Source of the DNA: Trissonchulus latispiculum | Lineage: Eukaryota > Nematoda > Enoplea > Enoplida > Ironidae | DNA: 64,000 nucleotides | Reading direction: 5' to 3' | Assembly (NCBI GenBank): GCA_030248195.1 | Contig: JASAND010022866.1 | Location: 1 to 64,000, forward strand | Part shown: piece after piece, positions 1,169-63,878 of the stretch | Numbering within the stretch: position 1 is the first letter of the stretch | Layout: the number at the start of each line of letters is the position of its first letter | The notes under the pieces: model-generated | Told to the model about the DNA's origin: nothing | What the model saw: the letters and a program-made list of their open reading frames with translations, nothing else | Database searches by the model: none | Made by a program: the position numbers and the translations under genes

Positions 1169-3660
1169 ACAATCGAACAAAGCTTAAGTTGGAATTCGTT
1201 CCCAAACTGTAGTGACATTTTAGAAGACGCTTTCGCGCCAGCCCACACAGTCTGATGGGAGCAAACCTCTACCGTTTCAAACCGTAATGGGCAAGACAAA
1301 TGAAATAATAAATGAATAAACATTTGCGTTCCCTAACGAATTCTGTGTTTGCTAACTGAATGCGGCGTACTTCTGTGTTAATGTGACTAATGTCCTGCAC
1401 AGCATTGTGGAAGCTTTACTTTTTGTTTCTAATATGGAGATTTATACCCAAACTCCGTAATTCTCCCTTTCCAATTTTATAGCACAGATAATACACATAT
1501 GCAAGCGCAATTACATAATGGACACAACTGACGGGTGTCGGTCCACAATTCGGTTGCCTTCGCTCATGACAGCAAGACAGATTGGCTCCGTCTTTCGTGT
1601 CTGATGGTTACTTCCAATTCCGTGCAAAGATAAATGTTCCGGTTTCAACGATTTCAGTGTTCTGATGCCAGGTTCCTGCGATTTTAGAAATAAACTCCTG
1701 GTCCACCCTTCCTGAACCAAAAATTGCGTGACCATGTATATTAGTGATATGTCCCGCCTGAGGTCCCAAAATGTAATACTCTTCCCGATGAGAATACAGC
1801 AACAACGCAAACGGCAACTTTAATTCATGACACCACAAAGTAATAACTAACTACTAACGGCTGAATATCCTAAAGTAGTCGATCCAGGAAAACCCGAACT
1901 TGTAGTTTTCAAACTTCTTATAAGTTACACATCACATATTGAGAAAATCAGCAGGTTCCACTTATACGATTTTCTGTTTGCTTGGCTGAATTTGTTAATG
2001 GGTTTGCTTTTCGATTTATGGGTTCAAATTCTTGGGTTGGGTTTAATCCACCTAAAACCAAGATTTAGGCTACCCCATGAGTCCTTGAACAAACGCATAA
2101 GTCATGCTTATCATGAAAAGAAACGCGGAAGTTCAACGAAACTTCAAAAGCACAAAAAACAGCAGAATTGCACTTTGACAGAGTTGGGGGAAAAGGGTGA
2201 CTGTTCGTCAGTCTTCAGTTTGGGGTTGACTCGTCTACTGACCAGTCGTGCCTTGACTGTGTTTCTGATTGTGTTTTCTGTGGATAGACCGTGTGAGCCT
2301 GTCTGATTTGTGCGCTGAGCTGTTGAGCTATCAAGTTGACTATTTGTCTGTCGTTGACGGTCAGTCCCCATTCTCCATAGTCAGTCTCGTGTGTAATTCC
2401 TGGAACTTGGTCACCTGTCCTTTACTATTCTTCTTCATGGGCGGAATCATTTGTGTAACAATATCCATAGTTTTGTGTAACAATTGTCTAAAGTCATCTC
2501 CCGATTGTCGTTGACTCTTATGAGGAACTTCTGTAATTAGTGGCATTTAGTAATAGTGAATTGAAGTGATCCGAATCTTGTTATTCGTGAAAGTCGCCTG
2601 TTACCGAAACATAAAAATTTGTAAAATCAAGCCTGCTGAGCCTGAGCCTGAGATTTGACTCTATAGTTAGGGATTTGATCTGAGGTTCAGAGTGGATCAT
2701 TGTCTTAGTTACGGAAGCTTTGACTAGGTAGTGACAATAGTAAACTGATCTCAGAGTTTAGTGAGCGATCAGCTCACTATTAAGTTGTTTTAAGACAAGA
2801 ATTTGCCATTTGGTGCAGAATATCACGTTAATACCACTTTTCAGATTGTCTTTAGAATGTTTAAGTTTGCCCGACCCCCAAACTTGTGCAATAGTAAGGA
2901 CTGAGTTGAATAAAGTTTGATTATTGAGACCATACATGTGCTTTGGAGGGGGGGGGGGGGGTACCTCCAGAATCCGAATTTTTCTTTTGGGCAAAAACCC
3001 GGAAGAGTTCGGTTTTTCCGGCCGCCGGTTCACCCACCCCAGAACTTCTCCTCCTGCACATGTCTGATTGAGACTATAAATTGACCTCTCAGCTCCGAAA
3101 AAGACCTGTAACCAAACCTTTTTTACATTTATTATATAGCATACTCAATGATTTTGCAACATCGAGCAGCTATCAAATTTCTTTTACAAGGGGGAAATGG
3201 GCGTACTATTCTTTAGATATAACGAGATATTCTCCGGAGCCATGCCTGTTTTGCAATTCAGAAAACTGCCGGAATTAGTGGAAGAATACAGGTTAAAGAT
3301 TTGATGGAGTTTAGCATTTTTTATGGAATTTTACAGCATTAACTTCAATAATACTAGCTTTTGTAGAAACAATTGATGATTGAACAGGAACGTAGCAAGC
3401 TAGTCTTATCTGAAAAAACCGCTGAGCGGTTTCCTTGGATTGTCGCTGTCTTCCCTATAGGCAAGTGATTCATGTGCCCATCCGTAGTTAAGGTAGGAAT
3501 GATGGTGTGCCCATGAGTTTTACGTGGCAGTGTGTTATGTGCCCATATGCAAACAGAGACATCAAGTGGGTTTTTTGGCTGATGTAAAAGGGTGTGTTTT
3601 AATTGGGTATTGTTTATTAGTTATGTTGTAGTTAGGTGGTGGTTTCTTTGTCGATAATAA
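1169..3660. other. Gene-free stretch with a G-run
   Basis: I see no supportable exon here. Positions 2947-2961 hold an uninterrupted G run, followed at about 2985-3035 by a GC-rich piece with small inverted pairs (CCGGAA..TTCCGG), which looks like the end of a degenerate transposon. The remaining frames are short and carry no splice-site pairs. Confidence 0.4.
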
Positions 3661-3689
3661 AAAGAAGTACATTAAGATGTATCTTTTTG

Positions 3690-4745
3690 ACAAAAGTGTT
3701 TTTGTCAATGCATGTGCAGTTGTAAATACACTGTAGTTGGTTGTAAACGTCTAGGTCGAAATGTTTTTAAATGTGTTTTGTTTTGTTAGTTGATTGTAGG
3801 AGTGATAATGTATGTTTGTAAATTCTGTAGTTGTAATTTGTCAAGTACAGTACGTTTTGGTAATAAAATGAAATTGTTCATGTTGGTTATAGTAACATGT
3901 AGTAGTGTATTCGAAAGAGTTGTTGGAACTGTGTATTGTTGTAAGTAGAGTGTTTTGTTTATTGTGTAAAGATTGACTAGAAAACACATGCAGTGTAGTT
4001 GGTTGTAAACGTGTACGTCGAAATGTTTTTAAATGTGTTTTGTGTTGTTAGTTGATTGTAGGAGTGATAATGTATGTTTGTAAATTCTCTAGTTTATGCT
4101 ATTGTTTGAAAACTGTTTTTTGTGAAACGTATGTCCACTTATGATTATAGTACTGTACTATATGAAAACGTCGAAATGTTTTTAAATGTGTTTTGTTTTG
4201 TTAGTTGATTGTAGCAGTGATAATGTATGTTTGTAAATTCTCTAGTTTATGTTATTGTTTGAAAGCTGTTTCTTGTGAAACGTATGTCCACTTATGATTA
4301 TAGTACTGTACTATATGAAAATGTTGATGTTGGTTATAGTAACATGTAGTAGTATATTGTAAATAGTAGTTAGAACTGTGTACTGTTGTAAGTAGAGTGT
4401 TTTGTTTATTGTGTTTAGATTCACCAGAAAACAGATGCACTGTAGTTGATTGTAAACGTGTACGTCCAAATCTTTTGAAATGTGTTTTGTTTTGTTAGTT
4501 GATTGTAGGACTGATAATCTATGTTTGTAAATTGTGTAGTTTAAGTAGACTGTTTTGTTTATTGTGTTTAGATTCACCAGAAAACAGATGCACTGTAGTT
4601 GATTGTAAATGTGTACGTCGAAATGTTTTAAAATGTGTTTTGTTTTGTTGTACGTCGAAATGTTTTGAAATGTGTTTTGTTTTGTAGAAAATAGAGTAAG
4701 AAGTATGTTTTTCACAAAAGTGTTTTTTGTGAATGCATGTGTAGT
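3690..4745. repeat. G/T-rich tandem repeat array with micro-exon-like cores
   Basis: Units built around CGAAATGTTTTTAAATGTG, TTGATTGTAGGAGTGATAA and TGTTTTGTTTATTGTGTTTAG recur four or five times with variable spacing. At about 3972, 4420 and 4570 the acceptor-like TTTATTGTGTTTAG is followed by ATTCACCAGAAAACAG-type sequence and then GATTGTAAACG, which could be a donor. If these are exons they would be 33 nt long and phase 1-1. They may equally be repeats that merely look like splice sites. The same acceptor motif precedes the two duplicated exons at 4979 and 5511. Confidence 0.5.
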
Positions 4746-5671: not shown

Positions 5672-5699
5672 TGCTTATAATAAATATGTAAATGGTAGT

Positions 5700-9732: not shown

Positions 9733-10395
9733 CCAGCACCTTGTGTAGCATACGTATATATACATTTTGTTCCACGGTATGCATCCAAAAAAGGTGCTGA
9801 ATGCACCGGCAATCGCGTTAAATCGATAATGAAATATACGTGTACTACATAATTGCTTGACAGTTTTCTTTGTTTGCCATTGTAGCGGGCACTAGCGCAG
9901 CCAGAAAAAAATTTCGGGGGGGGGAATGCAAAATTTTTGGGGGGCTCTGGGGGCTGAGCCCCCCAGAAGCTGAGAAATTTTTATATTGCGTGACCTTCGT
10001 GGATTTTTTATACACCATCGTTTGAAATTACAATAACATTTAAGAGGCAGTGCGTGTTCATGGTCCCAAATGATGCAGAAGCTAGTCAAACGACCCCTTT
10101 TAGGGTAATTGGTGTTCATTTTTTAATGCAAAAGACGTATTATTATGGTAAAGTACACTTATTTAGCGCCGAAGGCGTGACAATTTTTAGAGAAATGGGC
10201 GTTTTACACACGGCAGGAATGAAATTCCTGGGGGGCAGCACAATTTGGGAGGGGGGAATTTCCGCCATCCCGCCCCCCAGGCTACGCGCCTGGTAGCGGT
10301 GCAGGGGATGTCTGATAAAAACGTTTTCAATTCCTCGTTGCAAAAAATGGATAATTAGATATATGTGTACTACATACTTACCTGAAATGCTTTTT
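9733..10395. repeat. Segmental duplication block Y, copy 1, containing a TIR-type element
   Basis: This block is nearly identical to 12004-12670. Inside lies a sequence bounded by GCGCAGCCAG at about 9896 and CAGGCTACGCGC at about 10280. These are imperfect inverted repeats flanking poly-G, GGGGGGCTC and CCCCCCAG segments, as in a short non-autonomous DNA transposon. The open frames within it are repeat-derived: they translate homopolymer-rich sequence and occur in both copies. Confidence 0.7.
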
Positions 10396-10402
10396 ACACT
10401 TT

Positions 10403-11167
10403 GGTACAACCGAGTTGTTGAAAATGCGCAATTTCTGATTCCTTCCATGCCACATTGGGTTTTTGTGCTGCTGGCCAACAGAAGTGTCATGTTTCGCTGG
10501 AAAAGTTTGGGTACCGTTTGAGTACAAAAATAGTGAATGTTCCCTAAACAATTTACAATTTATGAATAATTTGGTTTTTGTATTACATTGATGTCGAAAG
10601 AGTGTATTTGATTTGAAAAAACTCTATGTTTAAAGTTTAGGGTTTTTCAGAAAAATTTGCTTTTTGTGGTGCTCCCCAACAAGTGTCATCTTTAGCTGGA
10701 AAAGTTTGGGTACCGTTTCGGTACAAAAATACTGAGTGTTCCCTAACAAATTTACAATTTAGGAATAACTTGTGGTTTTTTATTCGATTGATGTTCAAAA
10801 AACTCCATTTAATTTGAAAAAACGCTATGTTTAGGTATACAAGTTTGGACACGGATTGGAGACGTGGGTTGTTTAAAGTTTAGGGTTTTTTAGGAAAAAA
10901 TTTACCTACAACATTTTGGGTACGCTTTGGGTACGGCTATAAAAGTTTGGGTACGGGTTGGGTACGTGCGTTGTTTAAAGTTTAGGGTTTCAGATTATGT
11001 ACGTATGGTATATGTACGTACACACTTTATATACGATTATAAGAATATGTCGGTAGGCAATAGCGGTAATAGGCTCAATAGATAATGAAATGTGTGCAGT
11101 CTGGGTAGTCATCTAAAATTGCGACTATGTACCTCCTCCTCCTCCCTGTACAAACCGAAGAAATGCT
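10403..11167. repeat. Segmental duplication block X, copy 2
   Basis: Second copy of the block at 8973-9732, in the same orientation, with the same GGTACG minisatellite. The similarity stops sharply after AAACCGAAGAAATGC, where the first copy runs into block Y and this copy runs into unrelated sequence (TGATAAACG). Confidence 0.75.
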
Positions 11168-12003
11168 GATAAACGTATGGTATTATTTTCTATATATAGG
11201 TTTAGCGTTTACAGAACTTACAGCAGATACGTATGTAAGCAGTACACGTAGTAGCCTAAGTGAATAGTCAAAAATCTGCATAATAGGCTTTTCACGTTCA
11301 ATCATTGACAAGGACATTAACCAAAATGCATATAGTTTTTGCAACATTTACCACGAAGCAATTACACATAGGATTAATTATTTGTGCTACACGTTGTATG
11401 ATTTATAACTATAAAGTCAAAACAACGTAAATGTGCTAAGGAGACGTTTCAGGCGGACGTGTTGTATACGTATGTGGGTTTTTTATATTAGGTAGTGAGG
11501 TTATGCACGTATGCTATATGTACGTACACACTTTACATACGAGTATAAGAATATGTTGGTAGGCAATACAGGTAAAAGGCTCAATAGATAATGAAATATA
11601 TGTACTCTGTGCAGTTATGTCAAATTGGTAATGTTTTTCTGTAATTCTTGATTCGTGTCAAACATGTTGCTGTAAATATCTATCATATAGAGATTTGATG
11701 GCTTCTGCATCAGGAACATTTTGTCAAGAATCTTCATAATTGATTTTTATTAGTAAAAAGGTATCCTTGCAAGTTCTGTTAGCCGCACCAGTGCTAACCG
11801 CACCTTGTATATTTTATCATTTGTAACATGTGTATAGGGAGAAAAAGTTATGTAGAGGTAGTATACGTATGTATAAATTGTGTCTGAGATTCAATGTGAA
11901 AGTGTGTAATTGATGTAGTCGACATCTCTTAATCGATAATTAAATCTAGCTCTAGTATATAGTTAAATGAAATACGTGTTATAGAGTTGTATTTATTGTA
12001 ACT
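11168..12003. other. Unique spacer between duplicated blocks
   Basis: A short piece (about 11505-11600: GCTATATGTACGTACACACT, AATATGTCGGTAGGCAATA-like) repeats the end of block X in degraded form. Otherwise I see nothing coding or structured. Confidence 0.35.
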
Positions 12004-12670
12004 AGCAGCATCTTGTGTAGCATACGTATATATACATTTTGTTCCACGGTATGCATCCAAAAAAGGTGCTGAATGCATCCGCAATCGCGTTAAATCGATA
12101 ATGAAATATACGTGTACTACATAATTGCTTGACAGTTTTCTTTGTTTGCCATTGTAGCGGGCACTAGCGCAGCCAGAAAAAAATTTCGGGGGGGGAATGC
12201 AAAATTTTTGGGGGGCTCTGGGGGCTGAGCCCCCCAGAAGCTGAGAAATTTTTATATTGCGTGACCTTCGTGGATTTTTTATACACCATCGTTTGAAATT
12301 ACAATAACATTTAAGAGGCAGTGCGTGTTCATGGTCCCAAATGATGCAGAAGCTAGTCAAACGACCCCTTTTAGGGTAATTGGTGTTCATTTTTTAATGC
12401 AAAAGACGTATTATTATGGTAAAGTACACTTATTTAGCGCCGAAGGTGTGACAATTTTTGGAGAAATGGGCGTTTTACACACGGCAGGAATGAAATTCCT
12501 GGGGGGCAGCACAATTTGGGGGGGGGAATTTCCGCCATCCCGCCCCCCAGGCTACGCGCCTGGTAGCGGTGCAGGGGATGTCTGATAAAAACGTTTTCAA
12601 TTCCTCGTTGGAAAAAATGGATAATTACATATATGTGTACTACATACTTACCTGAAATGCTTTTTACACT
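12004..12670. repeat. Segmental duplication block Y, copy 2
   Basis: Near-identical second copy of 9733-10395, including the poly-G element bounded by GCGCAGCCAG and CAGGCTACGCGC. The similarity ends after TACCTGAAATGCTTTTTACAC, about 280 bp upstream of the first codon of the large multi-exon gene. Confidence 0.75.
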
Positions 12671-12950
12671 TTTGGTTGTTTGCGATAGTAGCGGGAGGGA
12701 TCTGTGATAAAAATATTTCAATGTGTCCTTGCAAAAAATTACTATTCAATAGAAAACCTCTGTCCAAAGTGTGTGGGTATCATTCCAATTTTTAAATAAT
12801 TTGTAAACCTTTCATTTTTTGATACTACAAAATTTTGTTCCAAATTTTAATAATCCATCGCTATTGTTAGAAAAATAGGGTAACATGTTCTACATTTTAC
12901 TATTTATTGAATTCCTTTTCATATTTTTAGGAGTTAATTTCATATATGCT

Positions 12951-27535
<14,585 letters not shown>

Positions 27536-32636: not shown

Positions 32637-34225
32637 GGTGTGGAGGAGGGTAGGAGTGATATTAATCGTTGCGATAGTGAAGTGGTGTGAATTTAATATG
32701 AAATAAAAGGTCCTCATAGCAGCATGTACTGTGAATAGAATTCCGGTTTTTGTTACGGTTATTATCTTGTAAGTGTACCTGTAAACAACGTTTGCATTGT
32801 GTATGTTTAGTACGCGTTATGACAAACGAAGAACAGGAGGGATTGCTACCAAGCAAGCACGGAAATGTGCGAACCATTGAAGAAGAAGGCGTGGACCAAT
32901 TTTCCCTGAACCTGCACAATGTGCACCAGCACACTACAGCAAATATTAGAGACGGTAACAAATAAATTCATTGGAAATAAATATTCTATGAAACGTCACA
33001 TTTAATAGGAGGAAAGCATACAATTCGTTTTCCGTGAATTTGTTTGTAATATAAGCGTAGCACATAGTTCTGTTTTTTTATGATACTGTACACAATACCT
33101 ATTCAGAACAATTGAGTAAACATAGTGTTCAAAGTTTATTGGAACCAGTAATTGGATGTGCGACAAATGGAACAACCGATTTTAATGTATAATGTACAGT
33201 TGTGTATGTATTTATGAAATAGTATTTTGTAAATAAAAGACAGCATTATTATGTTCATTTTAGGCAACAATAACTACGCCCAGCGAGATACATTCAGCAG
33301 CAACCAGAGACATAGTATTATCAGCAATCGTCGAAACCGCTATACTATACATCATTCGCCGTACTGGCATTCAACTCGAACACAACTACCAACTGAAACC
33401 ATCACAGGAGGGCCAAGTCGGGACTTCAACCCTACTACTACAAGTGGCTTATTGCAACATTCTATTTCGCGTATTATTAACGTTGTGCCTCAACAGCAAC
33501 CCCATCTTACAACAAATGTGTCCATACATAATCAGTTATCACCACACCAGTTCCATAATCCTCCTACAGTTGCACAGTCGCCGTCAACACTCCTGAAGGA
33601 GGATTTTGCTACTGCCGTTGTTGTTTCTTCTACGCCTAGCATCACACACTCTGGGCGGCCGACGAGTACGCAGCCGACAGGAGGCGCGATTGCACAGTGT
33701 GTTAGTTCAGGGCAGGCGTCGTTAGGACTGCCACCGTTTGGTCAATTTGTACCAGCTGGAGTACCCCAAGTTTTAACATTTGGTGGCCCTCCTGTGACGG
33801 TTGTTTGTCCTACTCCACTATGGTTGCCACCATTTATCCCACCTCAATTGATGTCTGGCATAGTAGATTTTCGTAATGTTCCTGCAAACACTATCATCCT
33901 TATTAAACGACAATGGCGTCCTGCTTCCAATCAGGGGAACGAATTTCTGGTTCGAATGAAAGCTTCATGTCCTAACGGTGATCGTTGTAAAGTGCAACCA
34001 TTGGAAGAATGTAAAGAAAGTCCTGCTGTTGTTCCATCTCCAAGCCGATTTTTCTATTGGGGAAGCAATGATAATAAACGCACCATAAAATTCGAGAACG
34101 CTCTCCTTCAGGTCCACGTGGGAATGAACAATCAAATTGGAGTAAGAGGACTTGTTGGGATTCCAGTGGATTTTTGCAATTTTTTGGAAGCGTTGGCAGG
34201 AGCACATTTGTTACAGTCGTATTAA
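31739..34225 (+). CDS. Four-exon gene A of the shared C-terminal-domain family (460 residues)
   Basis: Exons 31739-31871, 32114-32257, 32811-32954 and 33264-34225 join in phase 1 throughout and total 1383 nt. Residues 1 to about 325 are low-complexity (S, T, N, Q, P, H). Residues about 327-456 form the domain shared with the genes at 38222 and 47081: LWLPPFIPPQLM, DFRNVPANTIILIK, VPSPSRFFYW and GIPVDFCNFLEAL are its landmarks. The family is not one I recognise. The order valine-rich strand, basic loop, FFYW, then short strands resembles an SH3/Tudor-like barrel (inference). AATAAA lies at about 34481. The donor of exon 1 (TTCTA|GTTAGT) is next to an in-frame TAG, so an unspliced short form is possible. 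Confidence 0.7.
32604..32631. repeat. Poly-T tract
   Basis: Twenty-eight uninterrupted T's flanked by G-rich sequence (GGGGGAGGAGGGGG before, GGTGTGGAGGAGGG after), inside intron 2 of gene A. It may be the tail of an inverted retroposon, but no body was identified. Confidence 0.8.
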
Positions 34226-41200: not shown

Positions 41201-42267
41201 TATGTATTATGTACTGTTATTATCATTTATACATTATTATTTACAGTGTATATGTAGGGGTGCCAATCATGATAACTAAAACAATGTTTTAAGAGTATGT
41301 AATTTGTTAACTGGAATGTTAACGCGTCAAAGCAGTCATCTAATGTTTTTTATATTATCAATCATTTATGTTTATTCTACATAGTAACATTGAAATGATT
41401 ATGAATAATACTGTTATTTTAGGTAACATGAGTCATGGCCCGCTGAATACACCTGTAATTGCCAGTCCTGCCGTAGGATCCTACTGTAGTGGGACTAATC
41501 CGGTTTTGCAGGATCAGCCAATTCCGTCGACGGAATGTCATGGCGCACAGTGGCAAGGCCGTCAAGTTGAACCGATGACCTTTCGCCCCATTCAAAATCC
41601 TGATGACCATGATGCTGTTGTCAGTCGTTCGTCCAATGTCCAAGTTTCGCCGGTGGTACCCTCTCCAGTCAGAGTTACCTGTTCGTCGGGAATTTCAGCC
41701 ACTGAGGTTAACGTGGCTACGACGGGGAGATCCAATTTCCCTTTCCAGGGAATACTTGGACCGGGAAGAGCCGGTGTGCAAGGCTTTGTGCATCTGTTTG
41801 TCCAAGCTGTGGATCCCCGGGCTACTGAACCTGGTGCGACGAATCCGCGGTGCCGTCCTCCTGTGTGGCTGCCGCCATTCCTTGCTCCGCCACTGATGTG
41901 GGCTATTCGTGACTTCAGACAGGTTCCCCCTAATTCTATTGTTGTGCTGAAGTTTCGGAATGACTTAACTGGTCTGTACTCTAGTCGCTTCCTGGCCAAG
42001 GTGCAGACGTCCAGTATTGACGGAACATCGGCGGAGGTCTTCTGCCTGGGAGAGTCTACCGTTGTGCCAAGCATTGTTCCTGTGCCTTCTCGTTTTTTTT
42101 ACTGGCACTCTGTCGATGCTCCGCGAACCATATCACTTAATGAGGTGATGGTTCAGGTTAGTTTGGGCCCCAACAATGCCATTGGCCGTGATCCGGTGAT
42201 TGGGGTGCCAGTTGATTTTTGCCATTTTCTGGACGCGTTGTCCCGTTCCCATCTGCATGCGAACTGA
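38222..42267 (+). CDS. Seven-exon gene B of the shared C-terminal-domain family (557 residues)
   Basis: Exons 38222-38336, 38567-38755, 39699-39881, 40084-40218, 40393-40497, 40738-40839 and 41423-42267 all join in phase 1 and total 1674 nt. Residues 1 to about 420 are low-complexity, S/T/P/G-rich. Residues about 425-557 carry the shared domain (VWLPPFLAPPLM, DFRQVPPNSIVVLK, FLAKVQTSSIDGTSAEV, VPSRFFYWHS, GVPVDFCHFLDAL). An alternative acceptor at 38507 would add 20 hydrophobic residues in frame and is judged less likely. The last exon has a long competing minus-strand frame (41592-42074), but the domain match puts the gene on the plus strand. The last exon is more GC-rich than the rest. Its sixth intron contains a MITE. 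Confidence 0.75.
40899..41213. mobile_element. MITE copy 1, in an intron of gene B
   Basis: About 300 bp with inverted ends: ACATAAGAGTATAAC at 40911 and GTCATACTCTTATGT at 41191-41205. The body contains a C-run (41,0xx, GGCTGCCCCCCCCC), CATAGCGCTGGAATC and GGGGGGGAAGCCGATAGCGC. The same element occurs in the opposite orientation at 60544-60886. Confidence 0.75.
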
Positions 42268-45470: not shown

Positions 45471-47080
45471 AGATTAAATATCTTGTAAATTCTTAAAAGA
45501 TTTAAATCAAACAACGTTTATTTTGCGGAAAATGGATAAACCGTATTACTGGAATGCACTGTGTATGTGTTTGTTTATTATCAACTACTGCTTATATCAG
45601 ACATTGCGAGTGACCTGTGTTTAGCACGTGTTAAGCGGGCAGTGTTTTACAGCTGTACTGTGAAGTACGTTAATGAGGTCATGTACCTTTTTAACTGTTA
45701 TATTTTCCTATTCAGGTATAGAATAATTGATGTATTTTCGTATTCTGTTTTTTTTTCAATAAAAAGGTTTCGACCATTGTGTAATCCTAAGCCGTATATA
45801 CAAATAACAAAATGAAATATCGGAATACTTTTTAGAGTATGATTACAATTTGGGTATAGATAATAAATGTTCAGTAACAAATGAAGATTACAGATTTCGG
45901 TACTGAAACTTAGAAGTTACTGAAACAATAGAAACTACTTTTACTCAAATTAGCATTGTTTTATTTAATTTGTAACAACTGTTGAATTTTGAAACAACAT
46001 TTCTAGTTTTTTCTATAATGTTCTGTAAAAATTGTAGATTTAAACGAAAACTTTGTAAACAATGTTGTTGCTTGAACTTGCCTCCGACAATTGCATTTCC
46101 CGCAGACTGATCCTCATATTACGGTGTCGTCCCCACTAGTCCACTTCAAAGTTGGCAGTTGTTGTAACTTCCATCTAGTTAATATACTTCTACAGTTAAT
46201 ATTTGCTTTGAAAGCAGCGATACAAGGGTTCTGTCCTAATGACTAGAAATAATTTCAGTATGATAATAATTTTCAGCAAGGCTTTCAGGTTAAAATTTAA
46301 AAATTAATGAAACAATGAACGCTGTTTTTGTCATAATTTCCATGTTGTTATAAACATTACAACTACACTTACATAAGTGTAAAATATTTCGCCTACTTTT
46401 ACCTACCAATGTGACATTTCAAATAGAATGTTGAAATATAGAATAAATGTTGCCACATTTATCGTATGGTGCCATTAGAATTGACAACTACCAAAGTTTG
46501 AAATACGTAGAAATAGTTTAGAAGTAGTTAACATTTGACTGAAAAGTGTTTTTATACTTAGGGCTCATACTTACACAATACCTTAAACTGTTTTTGGTAA
46601 AGCAGTTGAAAGGAAAAACCTACACCGACATTATTTGAAATGAAAAGTAGCATTTGACAATTAAATTACAAGTGATTACTGAAACAATGCTGACGGAACA
46701 ACATATTTAAAATAGTAAGTAGAATCGTCGTAGAGAAGAATTAGTTCTTTCGACGAGACAACTACACATTTTGTTTACAAATTGGAAACAGTCGTTCCGT
46801 TCCAGTTTTCCGCAGTTCATAGTACAGTCTAAGTTTTCTGTATCCACATTTATGTTGTTTTCACGAAACAATTCAGTGTTTAGGGAAATATAGGGTTTTA
46901 TTCTGGTTTAGTCTGTCGTAGGCAAGACAGTCGTTGAAAACAGCGAGGATTACGTACTGTAGACAAGGAAACACTGACATTTTCATGTGTTCACTTTCCC
47001 AACTAGAAACAACGTTACATGAAAACGATTCTAATGTTCATTATTTAATTTTGTTGTAGAATAATCTTTATTAATTCAGT
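45471..47080. other. Intergenic stretch
   Basis: No exon is supported. The open frame at 45561-45815 is rich in Tyr/Phe/Cys, typical of T-rich DNA, although AATAAA occurs near its end. The stretch leads to an acceptor-like TTATTAATTCAG directly before the start codon at 47081. Confidence 0.35.
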
Positions 47081-47440
47081 ATGGAAACCGTATCCAATTT
47101 TCATGCACTTCCTAGCGATTGTGTATTAGTTCTAAAACATAGTTATCATCTGCCTACAGCGTATGCTAATCGTGTTCTTGCCCGCTTGCACGAATCTTCT
47201 TTGGATGGCCGTAGTTGTTTGGTTTGGGGTCTTCGTGAACATACCTACATCGTGAATCCAGCGTTACATGGACAAAGAATGTTCTTTTGGGTACATAATC
47301 GTTTGCATCGGCTGATACAAATTGAAGACGTGATTGGTGTCGTTAGTGATTATAATTGGGGAGAAGCTCAAGGGCGTCCTGTTATTTGCTTTCAGAAATA
47401 TCTGTGTGATTGGTTGGAATCTCTATCACTTTGCTATTAG
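47081..47440 (+). CDS. Gene C: stand-alone copy of the shared domain (119 residues)
   Basis: A single open frame from ATG, which follows an acceptor-like TTAATTCAG by one base, to TAG, with AATAAA about 75 bp downstream. It is essentially the bare C-terminal domain of genes A and B. LPSDCVLVLKHSY aligns with the VPPNSIVVLKF region, ANRVLARLHESSLDGRSCLV with SSRFLAKVQTSSIDGTSAEV, RMFFWVHNRL with SRFFYWHSVD, and FQKYLCDWLESL with FCHFLDALSRS. It lacks the WLPPF lead-in and the disordered N-terminus. It could also be the last exon of a longer gene, but the start codon is well placed. Identity to A and B is low, so the copies are old. Confidence 0.65.
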   Translation: METVSNFHALPSDCVLVLKHSYHLPTAYANRVLARLHESSLDGRSCLVWGLREHTYIVNPALHGQRMFFWVHNRLHRLIQIEDVIGVVSDYNWGEAQGRPVICFQKYLCDWLESLSLCY

Positions 47441-52792: not shown

Positions 52793-53878
52793 TCACACAC
52801 TGCTGGCACTAGAAACTGTTACAACAATAAATTCGTTGTATCAACACTACATAATGATAACAGTTTTTTGCAATTGCATTTTTTAATCAGAAAACATTAA
52901 AACAGTATGATACACGGATTAAAAAATAACAGAAATGTTTTCAAAATTAACGGTTACAAATTCATTTTTTGTCATTTTACTTAGAAACGTTTATAGAGAT
53001 TTCTAATCTTCAATAGTTGTATACTTTCAATGTTCAATCTAATTTTAGTATGGATTTATGCAATATGATCAAGACAATTCAGATATTGACAACAGAACAG
53101 TGTCAATGCGAATGTGCTGAATTCGTTTGATTTTTTCGACATCTAACAAAAGCTGTACATTACCAACAGGCATTTAAAGATCAATGTATTGTGTGTGTAT
53201 TCGCATATGAGTATTCGTATCGTGGAGCTAGGTTTTATATTGTAACAGAAATTGACCATGTCGTAGATCTATATTTTGCCGTTCCTTGTCAATACAGATA
53301 TTTCTACGAAATTGTGCCTTTAAATCGTCAAGTTCACACACTACTGGCACTACAAACTGTTACAACAATAAATTAGTTGTATCAAGACTACATAATGATA
53401 CGAGTTTTTTACAATTGCATTTTTTAATTAGAAAAAATGAAAACGGCATGATACATAGATTAAAAAATAACAGGAACGTTTCCAAAATTAACGGTTACAA
53501 ATTTTTTTTTTCATTTCACTTATAAACATTTATACAGATTTCTAATCTTCAATAGTTGTATAGTACGTTTTAATGTTCAATATAATTTTAGTATGGATTT
53601 ATGCAAGATGATCAAGAAAATTCACATATTGACAAGAGAACAGTGTCAATGCGAATCTGCTGAATTGGTTGGATTTTTTCGACATATAACAAAAGCTGTA
53701 GATTACCAACAGGCATTTAAAGATCAATGTATTGTTTGTGTATTTGCATATGAGTATTCGTATCGTGGAGCTAGATTTTATATTGTATCAGAAATCGACC
53801 ATTTCGTACATCTATATTTTGCCGTTCCTTCTGAATACAGATATTTCTACGAAATTCTGCCTTTAAATCGTCCGTGTA
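52793..53878. repeat. 543-bp tandem duplication covering the 5' end of the PrimPol gene
   Basis: The segment from CACACACTGCTGGCACTAG at about 52793 recurs at about 53336 (CACACACTACTGGCACTAC). Similarity runs through the promoter-side sequence, the ATG and the first 280 coding bases. The first unit ends at AATCGTC and the second continues as the intact gene. Confidence 0.85.
53050..53329 (+). pseudogene. Truncated 5' copy of the PrimPol gene
   Basis: It starts with the same acceptor-like TTTTAG, one base and ATG as the intact gene at 53593, and matches its first 93 codons or so (MDLCNMIKTI, then VFAYEYSYRGARFYIV). A TGA replaces the GGA codon at about residue 27, and the copy breaks off just before the catalytic DFDF motif. 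It cannot make a primase and is a by-product of tandem duplication. Confidence 0.85.
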
Positions 53879-54750
53879 AACTGTTTTTTGATTTTGATTT
53901 CATTGGAAACACTAAGGAAGGAACAAAATTTGATAGACTATTCAGAGCTGCTCCTGCTCACATTCGTTGGATTGCTCACAGCATGATTGACAGTAGCCAG
54001 ATCGATGATACGCATTATACACTGCTGACGGCTAGCAAGCAGCACAAAATAAGTTATCATGCTATTTTCTCTGACCGAGTGACCTTTCCAAATATCATGT
54101 ACGTATCAAAGTTTGTGGAAAAACTAGCAATACGTGTTAATCCTGGATTGCAGCTATGGGATAATTCCGTCTACAAGCCTAATCAAAATTTTAGAGTTCT
54201 GTTTTCAACGAAAAGGCAGTGCTGGCGTCCACTACGATTAGTATCGCCTACTTCATCATCGGATGAAGTCATTTTCGTACAATCTTTAGTTGGTAATTAT
54301 ACTTGTGTTTGCAAACAGTCGCCCACATTCAGGTTCTGTGTACCAACTTTAAATAAGTACTGCTTGTCTACTATCAATTTATACGCTCGTAATGAAGACT
54401 CGGGGCAAGTCCGGTGCTCCACTTCTGAAAATTTACAAACTGTACCCAGTAATGAAAGACAACATTTTTCCTTACGGAACAATCATACCTACAACGATAA
54501 CACACATTACATTGATATAGCTTGTCTTCATCCTGTCATTAGAGAGCAATTGCGAAATATTTGTGACTTTGACAACATCAAGAGTATCAAATTGTACGGC
54601 AATAATTTAATAATCTTATTTCATAATTACCGTTTTTGCCCAATTTTGAAAAGACATCACAAAAGCAACCACAGTTATCTTGTTTATAACTGGAAGTCTA
54701 TGATATGGAAATGGAAATGTCATGGTGTTTCTTGTAAAGGCATACTATAA
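53593..54750 (+). CDS. PrimPol-type primase-polymerase (385 residues)
   Basis: A single-exon, complete archaeo-eukaryotic primase of the PrimPol group, which makes primers and extends DNA on a template. The catalytic landmarks are in order: KLFFDFDF (residues 97-103, acids D100 and D102), ISYHAIF with S154 and H156, and D190 in LWDNSVYKPNQNFRVLFSTK with R201 and K207. Near the C-terminus RFCPILKRHHKSNHSYLV (C349, H356) and WKCHGVSC (C376, C381) form the zinc knuckle typical of PrimPol and UL52-like primases. No helicase domain is fused. At 385 residues it is shorter than animal PRIMPOL. The start is the first ATG, one base after an acceptor-like TTTTAG; a broken copy lies just upstream and the transposase gene begins 354 bp downstream on the same strand. 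Confidence 0.88.
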   Translation: MDLCKMIKKIHILTREQCQCESAELVGFFRHITKAVDYQQAFKDQCIVCVFAYEYSYRGARFYIVSEIDHFVHLYFAVPSEYRYFYEILPLNRPCKLFFDFDFIGNTKEGTKFDRLFRAAPAHIRWIAHSMIDSSQIDDTHYTLLTASKQHKISYHAIFSDRVTFPNIMYVSKFVEKLAIRVNPGLQLWDNSVYKPNQNFRVLFSTKRQCWRPLRLVSPTSSSDEVIFVQSLVGNYTCVCKQSPTFRFCVPTLNKYCLSTINLYARNEDSGQVRCSTSENLQTVPSNERQHFSLRNNHTYNDNTHYIDIACLHPVIREQLRNICDFDNIKSIKLYGNNLIILFHNYRFCPILKRHHKSNHSYLVYNWKSMIWKWKCHGVSCKGIL

Positions 54751-55104
54751 AAATTTAGATATGTCGTTCAATGCTAATGTTTCGTTACTGAGGACACTAT
54801 TAAATTGTATATGTCATGCTTTTATTACTTTGTCATGTAGTTTTTCATTGATTTGTAGTGCAGGCGTAATTGCAGTAAACACAAAACATGGACTATTTAT
54901 TTTGATACAAACTTTGACAGCTGAAACTAGTAAATTCAATTTTGTAAGTAAACCTAAAACAAGACGCGTTTGGTTTTGTATTTGTCACTTACAATATGTA
55001 AGTCCATTAGTGCTTGCTATTTACGACAATACAAAGAACATTGTATGTTATGGTTTTTTTCGTTACAGACTTATGACTAATATCTTACTACTGATAATAC
55101 AATA

Positions 55105-58100
55105 ATGGCCTTATATGGAAAAATGGAATGGTCACTACTACGGAGTCAAGATTTTGTACCGCCTTATTGTCGCAAACAAGAAATCAGAGCAAATGAAACT
55201 GTTATAAATATTATTTTTTGGGATCCTTTATCTGCGTTCAATTTACAGCTGAAGTGTCCTACTCACAACAACTCCAATTTGATATGTGGATCCTGGTATT
55301 TCAGATCAAATCGACAACCAAGACTATTTTGGGATATCGAATACCCTGTCTTTGTAATACCTCGTATATATCATTGTAAACACAACAATTTTAAACATAC
55401 TATCCATTCAACGAATTTAGATATTTTAATTCAAACAGCCGCCGCCGGTCATTGTACTATATTACCATTGCACCGGTCCGGAATGACATTACAGTTCATT
55501 AAATTTTTGAGAATTCATTTTGGGAGGACTAAGTCGTTGACAGATATTGCCAGTATTGTAGAAGAACAATATCGTGCAAGTGGCTACACAGGACACAGTT
55601 TTCCTTCCATGTTTTATTTGAAATCATGGTTTTACTATGATTACCAGCTGAATTATCCTTCATGGGCCTTGAAAAAAGAGTGTAGCTATTGTGTCCAGTT
55701 TTCTCAAACTATGTATACGATTTCTATAGATCATACGTTCAAATTTAGTACTTCCATTGGATGCTATATAAATGGAGAATGGAATAAGCTATTTAATTCA
55801 TTGCTTACTGTACTGGATGGTTGTGGTATTTTACTGGGTGTTCAACTTTGTGATACTGTAAGTTACGACGAGGCGAAATCTTGCATAGTACAAGCAGCTA
55901 CTTACTTACGAAGAAGCGGAAAAAACGTAGATATAGTTACCGTCGACTGTTGCTGTGCAGCGAAACACAAGATCTACAAATTATTTGGATCCGGCGTATT
56001 GGTGAAACTGGATAATTTTCATGCAATTCAACGTCTTAGTAAATGCATTCCCAAAAACAGTGCGTATTTACGCGAATATTTGCTAGACTGCCGGAATGCC
56101 CTACGAGCGCCTGGTGATTATATGGAAAAACGACGAGCCTTCACACCAGCTTCCGATGTTATGCTACGTTCGTTTACGACATTCAGGAACAAGTGGCTTT
56201 ATAGTATGCAGGATGACCCAGAGACAGGCCAACGAAAACGTATTTTGAAAAGAGGAACCAAGAGAATATTTGATAATCTGACTGTTCACATTGAACGTGA
56301 TTGCTTAAGGTACTACATTTTATTGCATCAGTATGAATTGAAATCAAAACTTCACATTGAAGCATCTTTGGTTACCATATAACCGTAATTATATTTTGAA
56401 ACACATAAAGTGATTTTAGAATGTTAAATTTGTTCTACTAAGCAATCAAAAGTTATACACGTTGTTGTATTTATTTTCTACGGATATGGATCGGATCTTA
56501 TGGAAAGGCCAAATCACCTACCGAGCGGTGAGTTGGCAATGGACACGTTTTGGAATCACGACCACCCCCCCCCGCAGTTTTCCTGCCCCCCGTGTTTATG
56601 GTGAACTTTCAACAAATTTGAACTGAAATTTTACATAAATAAACAAAGTATTTCAACTGAAATTTAACTGAGATAAATAAACTCCTGCAGAACATCCATA
56701 TACACTGAATTGATAGGAACTAGTGTGAATTAAATTAATCGAGTTCTGATTAGGTGCATACAAATCTAATGAGAAAGGGTAAAACATTACTATCAATTGT
56801 TGACCGAACAATTATCGTCAAATTTTGACAGTTGCAATAAGGGGACGCTCAAGGGCCCTGAAGTGTACCAATTATCTAATCGTAAAATAAAAACGCCAAA
56901 TGTTCTAAATTACTATAGTTCATTGCTTTGTCGCAGATTGTATGCATAGTTAAAAGTGGTTACAGAAATAACCGTCGGCTATCGGCCATTTGGTGAGGAC
57001 TATTTGTCAGCAATTAAGTATATTTGGCGTTTACGTTTTGCAAAATTGAAAGCGTTCAAATGTAAAAATTATAACAAAAATTAAAGAGTACGTATTTACA
57101 GTACTTTGAAAGGGAATTAGTGAAACTTCAGCGCTCGCCAACATGTTTTTTAAGGCTCAACTAGACGACTAAGTTTATAGTTTGATCATTGCTGAAACAT
57201 ACGTGCTACCGACCCCATGTTATCCGATCATATTTTAATGGTCAATTGTACACACTGTCAATCGGTGATGCGGAAAAATCGAGCAACTCTTATCCCCGCA
57301 TCTCATTGTACCGTATTTAGCATCACTTAATGCGATCCGATCCACCGATTCCATTGATATCAGTACTATTTATATTTTCTAAACACAAGTGATACTTGGG
57401 TGATTGCTCATAGTATGTATTAAGAATGTTACATCTATCAATCATAATTCGACTTCTTATGTTTATAGTGGAATTCCTCCAGGCGTTGGAACTAGTCTAA
57501 ATGAATGTTTTCATGCATATATAAAGCGTAGCTGTATTCAATCTAAATCTCAATTTGGAATAGATATGGCTTTAGCCATCTTATCACTGCTTGGAGATAG
57601 ATGGAATCTGCGAAAACACAAATCGTGCGAAGGAATCATACAGGAAGTAGACGAACAACAAATTATGTATGAAACTCTAACAACATTAAAACGGAATATC
57701 CCACCTCAGTATGAAGGAAAGTCTGCTCTCCGTCAAAGATATTGGAAGGACCTTCTGTTTTTAGAACATGAATTAACTCAGCGAACCGTTTCTTTATCAG
57801 CATGCGCATCTGTGGAAAGATTTGAAACTGTAATGAACATGTCAACGTCTGAACCCCCGCCCGAATCAGCAAACCAGTCATGTTTTATATGGACTACGTT
57901 ACAAGAAGCAATCGCTTATGATATAGTTTGGAAAGATATTATTGACGGTTTTGTTTCTACATTTTGTGGTGATTTGGTATGTGACAATCTCAATGACATG
58001 CTTGCACAGTGTGGAAAAAAACCGTTGCCAAAAGGACAAGCTTTTGTGGATTCGCTTTCTGCATTCTTGTGGACTGAACAAAATTGGAATCGCTACATTG

Positions 58101-59047
58101 GATTTATGTGGACAATCATAGAGACTATGGCCATAGAAAATTGTTCCATGGAGTTATGGCCAAATCACATTGGCCAAGCCCAAATTCTCGCAGATTTCGT
58201 TGGAATTCCAGTACTTGTCATTTCTAATCATCCATCATATACGAAACTAATATTTTTACCTATCAGCTATAATTTTCTAAATGCCGATTGGGGTTGTTTC
58301 TTATTGCTGTGGGAAACTACTCTAAATAAATATTCCTGGCACTGGAATATACGGAAAAGCTTACTGCACAATGCTCTTGTCGGGCAAACGAACACAGCGC
58401 CGCTTACGTCTGTTTGTATCGATTTAGGTTTAATATCATGCCGTTGTAAAAATAGTTCCATAAGTAATTGTTGCGAGCCGGCCGGATTCCGTAGTAGCTA
58501 TGGGTGTAAATGTCCCTGTGCTGCAGTTGGAAAAAGTTGCTTAAACTGTCATTGTCAATTATGTGCAAATATGTCAGGTGCTCGGGTAAGCAGTCACGAT
58601 ATAACTATCTTAAATTCTGATTCCGAACACACTGATGACACAGCCTTAATCCAAGTTTGTTCTGAAACTGAAAACGACCACGATATTCCTCCAATTTTTC
58701 CTACGAAACCTGCTACTTATTGCGATGAATTAATTGCCCGTCCACGACTACAATCTATTCGAATGGATTACATCAAACCTAGTAACGTTAAATGGACTTT
58801 TTTTGAACAAATGTTCGCATGGACTATAATGCGCGAAGAACAGGGTCTACAACAACATTTCGATATACAACATCTGTGCCGAAAATACAATGACTGTCGT
58901 CAAAGTCTTCACCCTGCTGGAATACAACCGCCGTCGCGACAATTGGGCCAGTTTAGTTTTGTATTAAAGAACATGATTGAACGGTCAGAATGGGCGGGTG
59001 GGGCGGAATTTTCCAGTCCACTTATACAGTATTTACTTAAACAATAA
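55105..59047 (+). CDS. DDE transposase with OTU-like and Cys-rich zinc regions (927 residues)
   Basis: Two exons, 55105-56309 and 57469-59047, join in phase 2 (TTAAG|GTACTA to TTTATAG), giving ..CL-SGIPPGVGTSLNECFH... N-terminal zinc-ribbon-like CPTHNNSNLICG..YHCKH (51-93); RNase-H-fold core with D209 (TISIDHTFKF), D281 (DIVTVDCCCA), KLDNFHAIQRL (301-311) and E414 (SLNECFHAYI). Residues about 590-695 resemble an OTU protease (GQAFVDSLSAFLW, IGQAQILADFVGIPVLVIS, YSWHWN), but the expected nucleophile Cys is replaced in GQAF, so activity is doubtful. Residues 748-767 hold CKCPCAAVGKSCLNCHCQLC, a tesmin/CRC-like zinc motif. The arrangement recalls large eukaryotic cut-and-paste transposases of the Kyakuja-Dileera-Zisupton kind; exact superfamily not proven. 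All three acidic residues are present. Confidence 0.82.
56310..57468. other. Intron of the transposase gene
   Basis: A 1159-bp intron with donor GTACTA and acceptor TATGTTTATAG. It contains a C-rich piece at about 56560-56600 (CCACCCCCCCCCGCAG) that may be a transposon remnant. Reading through the intron instead of splicing would end the protein at TAA (56380-56382), leaving it without the catalytic glutamate. Confidence 0.7.
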
Positions 59048-59879
59048 TCATGCCTTATCCCAGCATTAATTTACATTATTACATACTTTTCTGTGTTCAT
59101 ACTACAAAGATGAGGGAAAGGGTGGATAAAAATTTTGTTAAATAGAAGAGTGTGTTTTTTTTTTTCGTACAACATTTATTTATATCAGCGTTCGCCTTTG
59201 AAATGAGTAATAGCAGTGATATATTGTTTTACTTTTTTTCCTAAATAAGACCTTTGCTCTTTCTGAAGTTCAGTTCATAGCGTAGACTACAGCTCAAAAT
59301 GAGAATGTGTTTTTCAGCTTCTATTCAGGAAAGCATTGTGACTGCTTTTGCTGATTCGGTTCTGTGAGTTAACCTTAACATGTAGTTAAGGTCTATCTCT
59401 GAGTAATTGTTTTAGTTTACGATTCGGCTATGAGTTCATTATGTGCAGTTTTTGTGATAGCTCAAAAATTATGATATCACTGTCGGGTAGACAACCGAAA
59501 ATTGGGATTAAATCTAGACAACGGGAAACTATTGTTTGCAAAACGAATCGAAAGAAAAAGCAAAACTTCGAGTCAAAGTAACACTGAAACTGAAATTATT
59601 AAACTGTACCTAATGAAACCTAAGCGGACATGCAGTATTTTGTTATGCCCACTAAAAGTCTAACTGCAACTGAAATTATTTTTTATCAAACAATAAAATT
59701 GAAATTGTTAGTGAAAGTAAAAGCGATTAGTAAAACAACAGTATTACAAATAAAGAAAAATGAAATTGCTAGGGAGATATATGATGTTCGTTGGTGTAAT
59801 TACAGTTTCTTTACGTCTTCGATTCTACGTTTTTTACTGTGTTTATAGTTGTCTATAATATCATTTCAGCAACGTACAA
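59048..59879. other. Spacer between transposase and ATPase genes
   Basis: Short open frames only. An acceptor-like TATCATTTCAG at 59859-59869 lies ten bases before the start codon of the next gene, so a 5' leader exon or trans-spliced leader may attach here. Confidence 0.45.
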
Positions 59880-62800
59880 ATGGCTACGCTAAAGAGGACC
59901 ATGGAATCCTCTAACAAGAGAAACAATAAAGTCCCCGTAAAAAATGCCAGCAACGCTATCTTAAACTTGGAAGAAGAAGTGTTAGAAGAACTATTTGTCG
60001 ACATGGCTCGGGTACCATATACTATGCAAGGCCTACTTAATTGCGATATTCTGCAGCAGTATTTGACTACTATTGCAGTTTCTAAATCTTTAAGTTCAAG
60101 TCATGTTTTGGCCGCATTGTTGGAACTTGGATTTTACATTGCGGGTGGTAAGAATTTGAAATATAAAATATCAATTTTCAGTATATCAAATTTATGAAGT
60201 CGACTATACGACATTTACTCAAACTACAGTTAACTAAAGCATTCTGTTGTGATACAAATACAAACGACACATGTGCTTATTTAGATACTCAAGTAGACGA
60301 CAGAGATATGGGACGAGGATATTCATCTCCACATACAACAGCTACCATTGTATTTGTATCTGGTCGCCCATCCGTTGGCAAAACTCGATCTATGAAACAA
60401 TTTTTCCGTGGCATCATTGAAAACTCACTGGGTTTGGATGAGTTTCATGACAGATGTATTACGTGGTGTACCACACAGGGTACGCAGAAACAACAGAAAG
60501 ATGTAAGAACAGTAATTACAATAAAGTTTAGTAAGTTGGTAAAATCAAGAGTACATAATACATAACAGTATGACAAGCGTCATACACTATGTATTATCAG
60601 CTCGCTACATCCTCCGCATGCTATGGGCTTACCCCCCCCCCTAAATCAGGCCCCCCTTATCAAAGCAAAATAGAGCGCTATGCTTGCACGCTTTACAACG
60701 AAAACAGAACTAGTCAGTTGGTTCAACGTGTGTCTGTAGCATGCAAACATAGCGGGCGAATTTCTTTCACATTTTATGGGGGGAGGGGTAGGTCGACAGC
60801 GCGCATCGGATGTAACAGCCTTATAATACATAGAGTATACCTGCTGTCATACTCTTATGTGTTATGTACTCTTGATAAAATGAAACGACAAAACGCCTCA
60901 AAAAATGTGTTTCTCTATAGACACGTAACTTCAGATACGGTATTAACAAAAGCAATTTGACAACACAATAATAACAATTATAAGAGTTATACATGTTATT
61001 TTCAGTTGTTGAAATCAACCAAAGATGGAACGGTATTCTTAGTATCTGATGAATTTCTCAATACGGCGTCAGCTTTAGCAAAAAGTAGCAGTGGAGGAAC
61101 GAGAGAAAGTTTCGGATGGTTAAATCAAGTTTGGTCCGATTTTTCAGGGAGTTCCGTTTTTAAAGGGACTGAACATATGAAACCAATAAAAGCTCCGATA
61201 CACGTTTATGGAGGTGTATCTAATCGCGGTCTCCTACAAGTATATCAAGAAGCGAAACAATGCGATGGATTCTGGGACAGGTAAAACAACACTTATAATG
61301 AAATACGCAGTAAGGTCTGCTTTCAATAATATGGCACCTACATGCTAGCATGCCAACGCCTCCGCTTCATCTTGTGGGAAATCCGTATCTCATTAAGTTA
61401 CCCCTCCAAATGCCGGTTTATTACATAAGTGCCTACATTCTATTTTCACAGCAACAATCACCTGTTCTGCGCGGATTTCACGTATCATACGACTGCATTC
61501 CCGTTAAATAGATGTATGATGCTTCAATTGACGAATGATAGATCATATTTCTGGGGAAGAAGCGTTGTTTAGCGAAGCAACGACTCCAACATACGCAATT
61601 CTCGTAGTACCTACTTCTTTCCACGGGCCTGTTGTCCTATTTTATAATTTTAATACTATGTGCCATTCACTACATAGGTTGAATATATCACGTGCTATCG
61701 CCAAATTGTAATGTAAAATATACGGAGTATATCAATATATCTGTTAGAATCGGTATATGTTACAACTACTACATATTGATATTATATGATAATAACGTTT
61801 GTAGAGTCGTCCTGTTTCCTGCTGTCACAAAACTATACAAAAATGCTGAACGAGATAAAGCCGATGCAGTACTTCGACGGCAATTTAGTCAGTTGACACT
61901 AGAAGAAGCGTTTAAGAAATTGTGGATGTTTCATCAGAAATTGTAATGTGCTTACATTTGTAATTGGTTTCATAATTATGATATACTGCATGTCCCAAAA
62001 ATGATAGACCATTTATTACATTTATACTATGTTTCCTTAACATCAATATTTATTTTCAATGTAGTTCTTGCATTAATAAAAAAGCTCAAATTATTAAATT
62101 GTTGTAATCTCAATGTTTACATTATTTTATATTATAGGCCAAACAACCGCAATTATTTTTTGGGAACAGAAGCATGTAGACTACTACGAAACCACTACGA
62201 CAAAATGGTAGATACCATTAATATCGATATAGATTTAGGGAAACCATATGCTAACAATCCGAAATGCCTTGAAATAGCAGTACGGCTTGCTGTATCGCTT
62301 CACATTATGGAATATGTCGTCCAGAGCATGGCAGGAGTGACACAAGAGCAATATACCTTTGAACTTAGTTCACACAATTTGTCGGATGCGATCTCCATTA
62401 TCAATCAAAGTGAACATTGGAAATTATGTGCTTCCAGGGTAAACGTTTCTTATACTGAAATGCATAATTGTTTCTGCATGCTACACATTGTAACGGTGAT
62501 GTAGTATTCAATATTCCTGACGTCTGTGCCGACAAGTGACCGCTAGCACCAGGAACGAATAGTTACTTACTTAGTTAATTAGGTTCTATTCCGAGTTGAA
62601 AATAGATTAATTATTGTTGACCATGACCGCCCCATGGCCGGCGGCAGCCGTCAATGCCACCGGCGACGACTGTGGTCACAGCCCACATGCACATTGTGTC
62701 ACCACGAAATGTTCCGTTATTGAGCTTTAAATTCCTACGAAAATGTACTGTTTTCCTATCATTAAGGTTTTTTGTCTATTTTCACGATCGCTCAACAAAA

Positions 62801-63155
62801 AGTTACAAACAAATTAGATTTCTGTAATGAGTATGTTTTTTGAAATTGTTTAATAAATGAAGAAGGTTATCATTGTCAGTAAAATGTAAATTTTATTCGA
62901 TTACAGTCTTCAAGTTTGAATTGTTGGTTATTGCAAACAAGCGGAAGCAAAAAACCTAAAAAAAGTCCTCGGCAAGTGCCCGGACAATTCTGTGTAAAAG
63001 TGTTTTCTAATTGGTTGCATGAGCTCAGCGAAGTCCGTCTGCAGAACTGCAGTTGGGAATATGAAGATTTGATTTTTTTCGCTTCTGTGCTGCGTCGTTT
63101 AAGTTCTCCTCAGTTGAACTTTACGACCACAACTTGTCAACATGGTCGACTTTGA
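59880..63155 (+). CDS. P-loop ATPase, DUF3987-like primase-helicase partner (497 residues)
   Basis: Exons 59880-60147, 60240-60502, 61006-61280, 61805-61942, 62138-62438 and 62907-63155 join in frame (1494 nt) and end in TGA. Walker A is GRPSVGKT (131-138), Walker B FLVSDE (188-193), a sensor-like APIHVYGGVSNRGLLQ precedes DGFWDR (264-269), which continues VVLFPAV in the next exon. CLEIAVRLAVSLHIMEYV in exon 5 is the helical C-terminal motif seen in DUF3987-type proteins, which partner primases in replication of mobile elements. An ATP-driven helicase or replisome role is inferred. The exon 2 acceptor (AACTAAAG) is the weakest join, chosen because it alone keeps phase. The Walker A and B exons are separated by an intron containing a MITE. 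Confidence 0.72.
60544..60886. mobile_element. MITE copy 2, in an intron of the ATPase gene
   Basis: About 340 bp with inverted ends: ATCAAGAGTACATAATACAT at the left and ATGTGTTATGTACTCTTGAT at the right. The interior matches copy 1 (40899-41213) on the opposite strand, including the C-run, CGCTATGCTTGCACGCTTTA and CATGCAAACATAGCGGGCGA. The open frames through it are not genes. Confidence 0.78.
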
Positions 63156-63701: not shown

Positions 63702-63878
63702 TTATTTGCCGTACTGGGGACCACAATACGAGTGAAAAGGCCTATTGATCATAAAGCAGAAGTTTCTATTTTACAAAGAGTACATACCAAAGCAGCCGAA
63801 TTTGCAGGAGGATTTGTAGTCGCTCACGTTTTACGGGAAAATGCAAGCAATCGAATGAGACAGTTGTATGGCAACAAA
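63702..63878 (+). CDS. Candidate internal exon of a gene running off the window
   Basis: A 59-codon phase-0 segment between TTCTGTTATAG and AAA|GTAATT, beginning LFAVLGTTIRVKRPIDHKAE and containing QRVHTKAAEFAGGFVVAHVL. A further acceptor (TTTGTTGCAG) occurs at 63972-63981, near the window end. It is either an extra 3' exon of the ATPase gene (which would need the TGA at 63153 to be bypassed by an earlier donor that I could not identify) or an exon of the next gene. No domain was recognised. Confidence 0.35.

Follow-up and report, generated by a model that had tools for sequence, protein, structure and literature searches.

A probable family of giant, intron-bearing DNA transposons with a PrimPol, a putative DDE-type transposase and a DUF3987-type ATPase in the nematode Trissonchulus latispiculum

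Introduction

Three genes, predicted to encode a PrimPol-like primase-polymerase, a DDE-type transposase and a DUF3987-type ATPase, follow one another on the + strand of a 64,000-nt stretch of T. latispiculum DNA (hereafter the window; positions 1–64000 of contig C15494, which is 70,496 nt long). Do they belong to a single mobile element, and if so, to which kind? A sequence-only reading had proposed that the genes, placed at 53593–63155, mark a large transposon that replicates itself. The proposal was followed up in the window's own genome (734 Mb in 21,732 contigs), from which all evidence was drawn. The shared orientation of the genes and every residue named in that reading were found exactly as given. 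The genes are intact here, they recur and diverge together and are under selection, and copies share a precise left boundary. We consider it likely that the three genes are the core of a family of giant DNA transposons of eukaryotes (this copy probably measuring 62 kb or more) that bear introns and carry accessory genes upstream. Whether this family is a new superfamily with an undescribed transposase, self-replicating with its PrimPol and DUF3987 helicase and neither virus nor Polinton, we judge to be an even question.

The core genes

The PrimPol gene (53593..54750, + strand) has 385 codons in one exon and encodes a UL52-type zinc finger. The protein had been described as complete, and its frame is indeed open and contains DFDF at residue 100, SYH at 154, D190/R201/K207 and the zinc ligands C349, H356, C376 and C381. 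D100, S154, H156 and D190 are invariant in all 12 copies aligned, residue 102 is D in 11 and E in one, and C349, H356 and C376 are invariant with C381 nearly so. The copies therefore contain the AEP motifs DxD/E and SxH and the third acidic residue, and the element's PrimPol has the zinc finger C-x6-H-x19-C-x4-C. A profile built from the 12 copies matched human PrimPol (7jk1; E 1.2e-20) and a plant PrimPol-like protein, P0001 (E 5.3e-18), which carries PF03121 (Herpes_UL52). The plant protein was the only match of this profile among 1413 candidates from 5.8 billion proteins; hhalign aligned the two with a probability of 98.95 over 334 columns, covering most of the length, zinc finger included. 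None of the 12 individual copies matched PF03121 or any other Pfam primase family, a single PrimPol sequence found no relative among the 5.8 billion proteins, and a search of phage records with PrimPol found none either. Its sequence assigns the element's PrimPol to the eukaryotic type, with a UL52 zinc finger. It resembles human PrimPol (CCDC111) in its catalytic motifs and in the spacing of its zinc finger, a spacing also seen in P0001; it differs in being multicopy, 385 aa long and part of what is probably a mobile element. The family raises the question of gene exchange between cellular and mobile PrimPols.

The second gene is predicted to comprise two exons on the + strand. Exon 1 (55105..56309) encodes a cysteine-rich N-terminus, D209, D281 and D303xxH306, and exon 2 (57469..59047) encodes E414 (GVGT..NE..H), an MSL2-like CXC cysteine cluster and a C-terminal domain. 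Joined over a 1159-bp GT-AG intron, they would give a protein of 927 aa with no internal stop; the splicing of this gene and of the ATPase gene was predicted from sequence. The motifs IDHTF at 208, VDCC at 280 and NECFH at 413 place the D209/D281/E414 triad precisely where the sequence-only reading had it. D209 is present in nine of ten aligned copies (N in C7965), D281 in all ten and E414 in all nine. Matches to known families are few: the CXC cluster matched weakly (E 0.0087), MSL2-CXC of Pfam was weakly matched by five of nine exon 2 copies (best E 0.026) and DUF6729 by two of ten exon 1 copies (best E 0.0072). KDZ transposases have cysteine clusters too, and the KDZ Pfam model had no match at E up to 1 among ten exon 1 and nine exon 2 copies. 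The same copies matched no Pfam transposase family, exon 1 had no match in the PDB, and its profile found no relative among the 5.8 billion proteins. Its conserved D, D and E residues, from which the class assignment is drawn, make the gene a putative DDE-type transposase.

The ATPase gene was modelled as seven exons on the + strand at 59880..60147, 60240..60502 (Walker A GRPSVGKT), 61006..61280 (Walker B SDEF, and GFWDR), 61805..61942, 62138..62438 (RLAVSLHI), 63702..63878 and, past the window end, 64095–65327 of the contig. The predicted protein, spliced over six GT-AG introns, has 884 aa and no internal stop, with GRPSVGKT at 131, SDEF at 191, GFWDR at 265 and RLAVSLHI at 364; by eye, its tail resembles a winged helix. 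The Walker-type ATPase and the intron-bearing structure of this and the transposase gene, both part of the original proposal, are borne out by these models. Its cluster end at 63155 is not, as the last exon of the model runs to 65327. The ATPase of copy C7490 scored 37.6 bits against DUF3987 (PF13148), above the curated Pfam cut-off of 27. Three of eight ATPase copies matched DUF3987 at E up to 1, and the copies in the window, C10541 and C10544 did not. With at least one of the eight passing the cut-off, the assignment of the predicted protein to the DUF3987 type holds. Profile comparison, which the sequence-only reading had suggested together with AlphaFold, upheld its PrimPol and DUF3987 assignments, and a single-sequence AlphaFold model of exon 1 of the transposase (pLDDT 34.9) gave no usable evidence on an RNase H fold. 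As a separate observation, an ATPase intron contains a MITE-like inverted repeat with 98-nt arms (60544–60876).

Recurrence and joint evolution of the core

Searches of the genome retrieved at least 95 PrimPol, 79 transposase and 57 ATPase exon 3 matches, the last count including the window's own; these places are not all independent, as near-identical contigs may be haplotypes. Of 61 transposase matches used for neighbourhood analysis, 46 have a PrimPol no more than 40 kb away on their own strand, either 1.1–6.9 kb upstream (41) or 22–24.5 kb downstream (5), and 15 have none in that range. By the same measure ATPase exon 3 lies downstream in 38, and both partners are present in 33. By chance, about 0.005 PrimPol neighbours would be expected per transposase match, or about 0.3 for all 61. 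The cluster is thus more than a chance arrangement, since it recurs in dozens of genomic places, and neither outcome that the sequence-only reading had named as refuting it, a lack of co-occurrence or a chance nesting of different elements, was seen in this genome.

Ten copies besides the window, picked as the best PrimPol matches, were fetched for comparison. PrimPol is followed by transposase exon 1 in all ten, transposase exon 2 is present in nine (missing in C19236), and ATPase exons are present in nine, the contig of C3539 stopping before them. The distance matrices of the three genes are strongly correlated (r 0.91–0.98, pairwise, 6–10 copies). Between C7490 and C8207, dN/dS is 0.018/0.087 (about 0.21) for PrimPol, and 0.020/0.122 and 0.011/0.114 (about 0.16 and 0.10) for the transposase exons. 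The ATPase exons range from about 0.02 to 0.54, with two at 0.008/0.352 and 0.016/0.376 and weaker constraint in exon a (0.091/0.168); the higher dS in some of them suggests recombination between copies. Between the window and C19236, dS is saturated. These comparisons support the view that the three genes are one evolutionary unit and have co-diverged under purifying selection.

Two observations fit a single unit less well: the 15 transposase matches with no PrimPol in range, and a different gene order in five copies. In C10408, C8830, C2299, C9729 and C5838 the transposase comes first and PrimPol follows after 22–24.5 kb, with the ATPase after PrimPol in four of the five and several ORFs in the gap of C2299, the one that was read. 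C3762, C7404, C18085, C10408 and C3459 each carry the same gene as an inverted pair on one contig, some of them equal-scoring; these are either genuine palindromes or products of misassembly.

Element boundaries and accessory genes

A probable left terminus of the element was located at 3460..3724 (+ strand), far upstream of the core. Its first bases are GGCAAGTGATTCATGTGCCCAT. Contig C12695, which is 95% identical to the window in accessory gene B (see below), matches the window from position 3464 only, and its first 1697 bases have no match to window 1–3463. With window 3300–3900 as query, 11 other contigs were found, the leftmost match of each starting at window 3459–3472. In nine of the 12 aligned rows, window included, GGYRAGYR stands directly before ATTCATGTGCCCAT. 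These nine rows have eight different flanks, C10045 and C8141 sharing theirs; of the remaining three, C13293 has a small deletion, C961 is diverged and C3057 is not in register. A common boundary in different flanks is the pattern of independent insertions of one element. Position 3460 therefore probably marks the element's left end. The ATPase gene ends 62 kb further on, which would be a minimum size for the element, and the mobile unit probably extends far beyond 53593–63155, the interval originally given for the cluster. Near this end, many related repeats occupy window 3500–12700 and 21800–25800, with strong GC skew at 4–8 kb. A 268-aa open frame at 19284–20090 appears helix-turn-helix-like by eye, with no Pfam match above cut-off.

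Upstream of PrimPol, at distances of 19.8, 11.7 and 6.5 kb, are three paralogous ORFs on the + strand, named accessory genes A, B and C. Gene A (33233..34225) has a conserved C-terminal domain (33842–34210) and is 44% identical to B over 135 aa; gene B (41344..42267) contains the conserved domain at 41887–42264; gene C (47075..47440) is a shorter paralogue with 32% identity to B (E 3.6e-12). Gene B has no Pfam match and 20 matches in its own genome, itself included. Members of the family stand upstream of PrimPol and on its strand in the window (three), C19236 (three) and C8114 (two), and C18684 has two matches that precede ATPase exon 3.

The left end and genes A–C could instead belong to one element and PrimPol, transposase and ATPase to another adjoining it, which we consider unlikely. 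None of the 11 other left-end contigs has a match to PrimPol, transposase or ATPase; ten of them stop less than 30 kb past this end and would not extend to PrimPol at the spacing seen in the window (50 kb). The eleventh, C12695, lends weight to the two-element reading: it has the left end and A, B and C, followed by about 21 kb beyond gene C with no core match. This copy may have lost its interior, or the left end may be that of an adjacent element. Most core-bearing loci, moreover, have no A–C match at E 1e-3. The other ten of the 20 matches to gene B lie on C12695, C4643, C3899, C5626 and C12985, contigs that have no core match. As C12695 lacks the core, the left end is tied to the core by the window and by the A–C members that accompany the core in C19236 and C8114. 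The recurrent same-strand position of A–C upstream of PrimPol in these three loci argues against two elements, as do the two members in C18684 and, in C2299, a paralogue family between transposase and PrimPol that is weakly alignable to A–C (hhalign P 8e-4, probability 24.7).

On the other side, no right end was found in the window's contig or in the fetched copies. No terminal inverted repeats were found between the left end and the contig end, a span outside which the right end would lie, and no convincing inverted pair was found to flank the fetched copies; several repeat pairs in C19236, the best of them 67% over 169 nt, were provisionally taken for dispersed repeats. With the left side alone located, no target duplication was found. 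C3459 was considered as a source of ends and rejected: its match to the contig of the window continues up to 70216 (of 70496), and its PrimPol is rearranged, so that it gives no clear right end. The comparison of copies for shared ends, as the sequence-only reading had advised, thus yielded a precise boundary in unrelated flanks on the left, and neither a right end nor inverted repeats. Coding-looking exons of a further gene were noted by eye downstream of the ATPase (C15494:68588–70191, L027); the element would continue there.

Relationship to known systems and proposed mechanism

No paper on an element combining PrimPol, transposase and DUF3987 ATPase was among the matches listed in our literature search, which covered few preprints or subscription journals and did not include Repbase. 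Its nearest counterparts are Polintons, Teratorn, the giant KDZ transposons and prokaryotic AEP-DUF3987 elements; from each it differs in some feature, either tested here or described. Helitrons, Polintons and Teratorn are described as eukaryotic transposons carrying replication enzymes (PMC6431247). Polintons/Mavericks are likewise giant eukaryotic DNA elements, with their own replication enzyme and a DDE integrase (PMC6431247). The present family differs in having PrimPol, a DUF3987 ATPase and a transposase without Pfam match, and no family B polymerase or retroviral-type (RVE) integrase was found among the ORFs scanned, which are part of the element's. The KDZ giant transposons of Ectocarpus resemble it as giant DNA transposons with accessory genes, and PMC12477816 does not contain the word primase. 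As for prokaryotes, mobile elements of bacteria and archaea may encode an AEP primase as a fusion with DUF3987 or another putative helicase domain, and the All3500 family of the PrimPol-PV1 supergroup consists of such prokaryotic fusions of an AEP primase with a DUF3987-type putative helicase (PMC5862659). Here the two are separate genes, the ATPase being spliced and the PrimPol being of the eukaryotic type with a UL52-like zinc finger.

Teratorn, a piggyBac element fused with a herpesvirus, is a giant mobile element that unites a DDE transposase with primase and helicase (PMC6431247). It is 180 kb long and largely herpesvirus-derived; in the present family the transposase copies have no piggyBac match in Pfam, and the ORFs scanned include no viral structural gene. 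Teratorn offers a precedent for reading the present locus as an endogenised lineage of large DNA viruses with primase, helicase and integrase rather than as a transposon, and a multigene unit of probably more than 60 kb whose AEP primase and helicase-like ATPase resemble viral replication modules is in keeping with that. We nevertheless hold a viral origin to be improbable. The genes are spliced, IMG/VR holds no relative detectable with the PrimPol, transposase exon 1 or ATPase profile, and the ORFs scanned, again part of the element's, gave no capsid or packaging match in Pfam.

A host multigene cluster spread by segmental duplication and not itself mobile would account for the introns, the purifying selection and the about 30 kb of homologous DNA in C7490 and C8207, which share it to the limits of the fetched sequence and so provide no ends. 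It is very improbable, given the common left boundary with different flanks, the high copy number and the broken copies. A chance nesting of different elements, for which the repeat-rich window might speak, is scarcely credible in the face of the co-occurrence, selection and correlated distances described above.

For a giant transposon, the reading that we prefer, a mechanism can be proposed. The transposase would bind the element ends and join element DNA to new sites; the ATPase would unwind the element DNA, on whose opened strand PrimPol would lay primers or short stretches of DNA; and host polymerases may extend these products, so that the element is copied around transposition. The PrimPol/ATPase system would then do the job of the protein-primed PolB in Polintons. 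The transposon part of the original proposal gains from the recurrent unit, its matching divergence, selection and the probable left end, and self-replication is what we infer from the gene content. A nucleic-acid-primed polymerase and primase with a suitable integrase have been suggested to allow elements of unprecedented size (PMC6431247). The present family comes close to that design, since a single unit of probably more than 60 kb contains PrimPol, a transposase and an ATPase of helicase type, and provides a testable, apparently non-viral model for transposon self-copying.

Sequences upstream of PrimPol

Just upstream of the PrimPol gene (53050..53337, + strand) sits a partial, broken copy of its 5' portion, with one TGA. 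It is 81–84% identical to the first 93–96 residues of PrimPol, and the duplication forms a 300-nt direct repeat (93% identical, spacing 543). Farther away, three copies have a conserved block 1.2–1.8 kb before PrimPol. It was considered as a left end and rejected, as it consists of a tRNA-Glu and a 185-nt structured sequence (z -2.54). This tRNA-Glu(CTC) block lies at L013 1015–1428, L017 8575–9001 and L015 8016–8200, the tRNA being called in two of the three. Its identity is 96–100% among copies that share only about 64% of their gene sequence at the DNA level, and shorter relatives (about 92 nt) of its sequences occur on further contigs.
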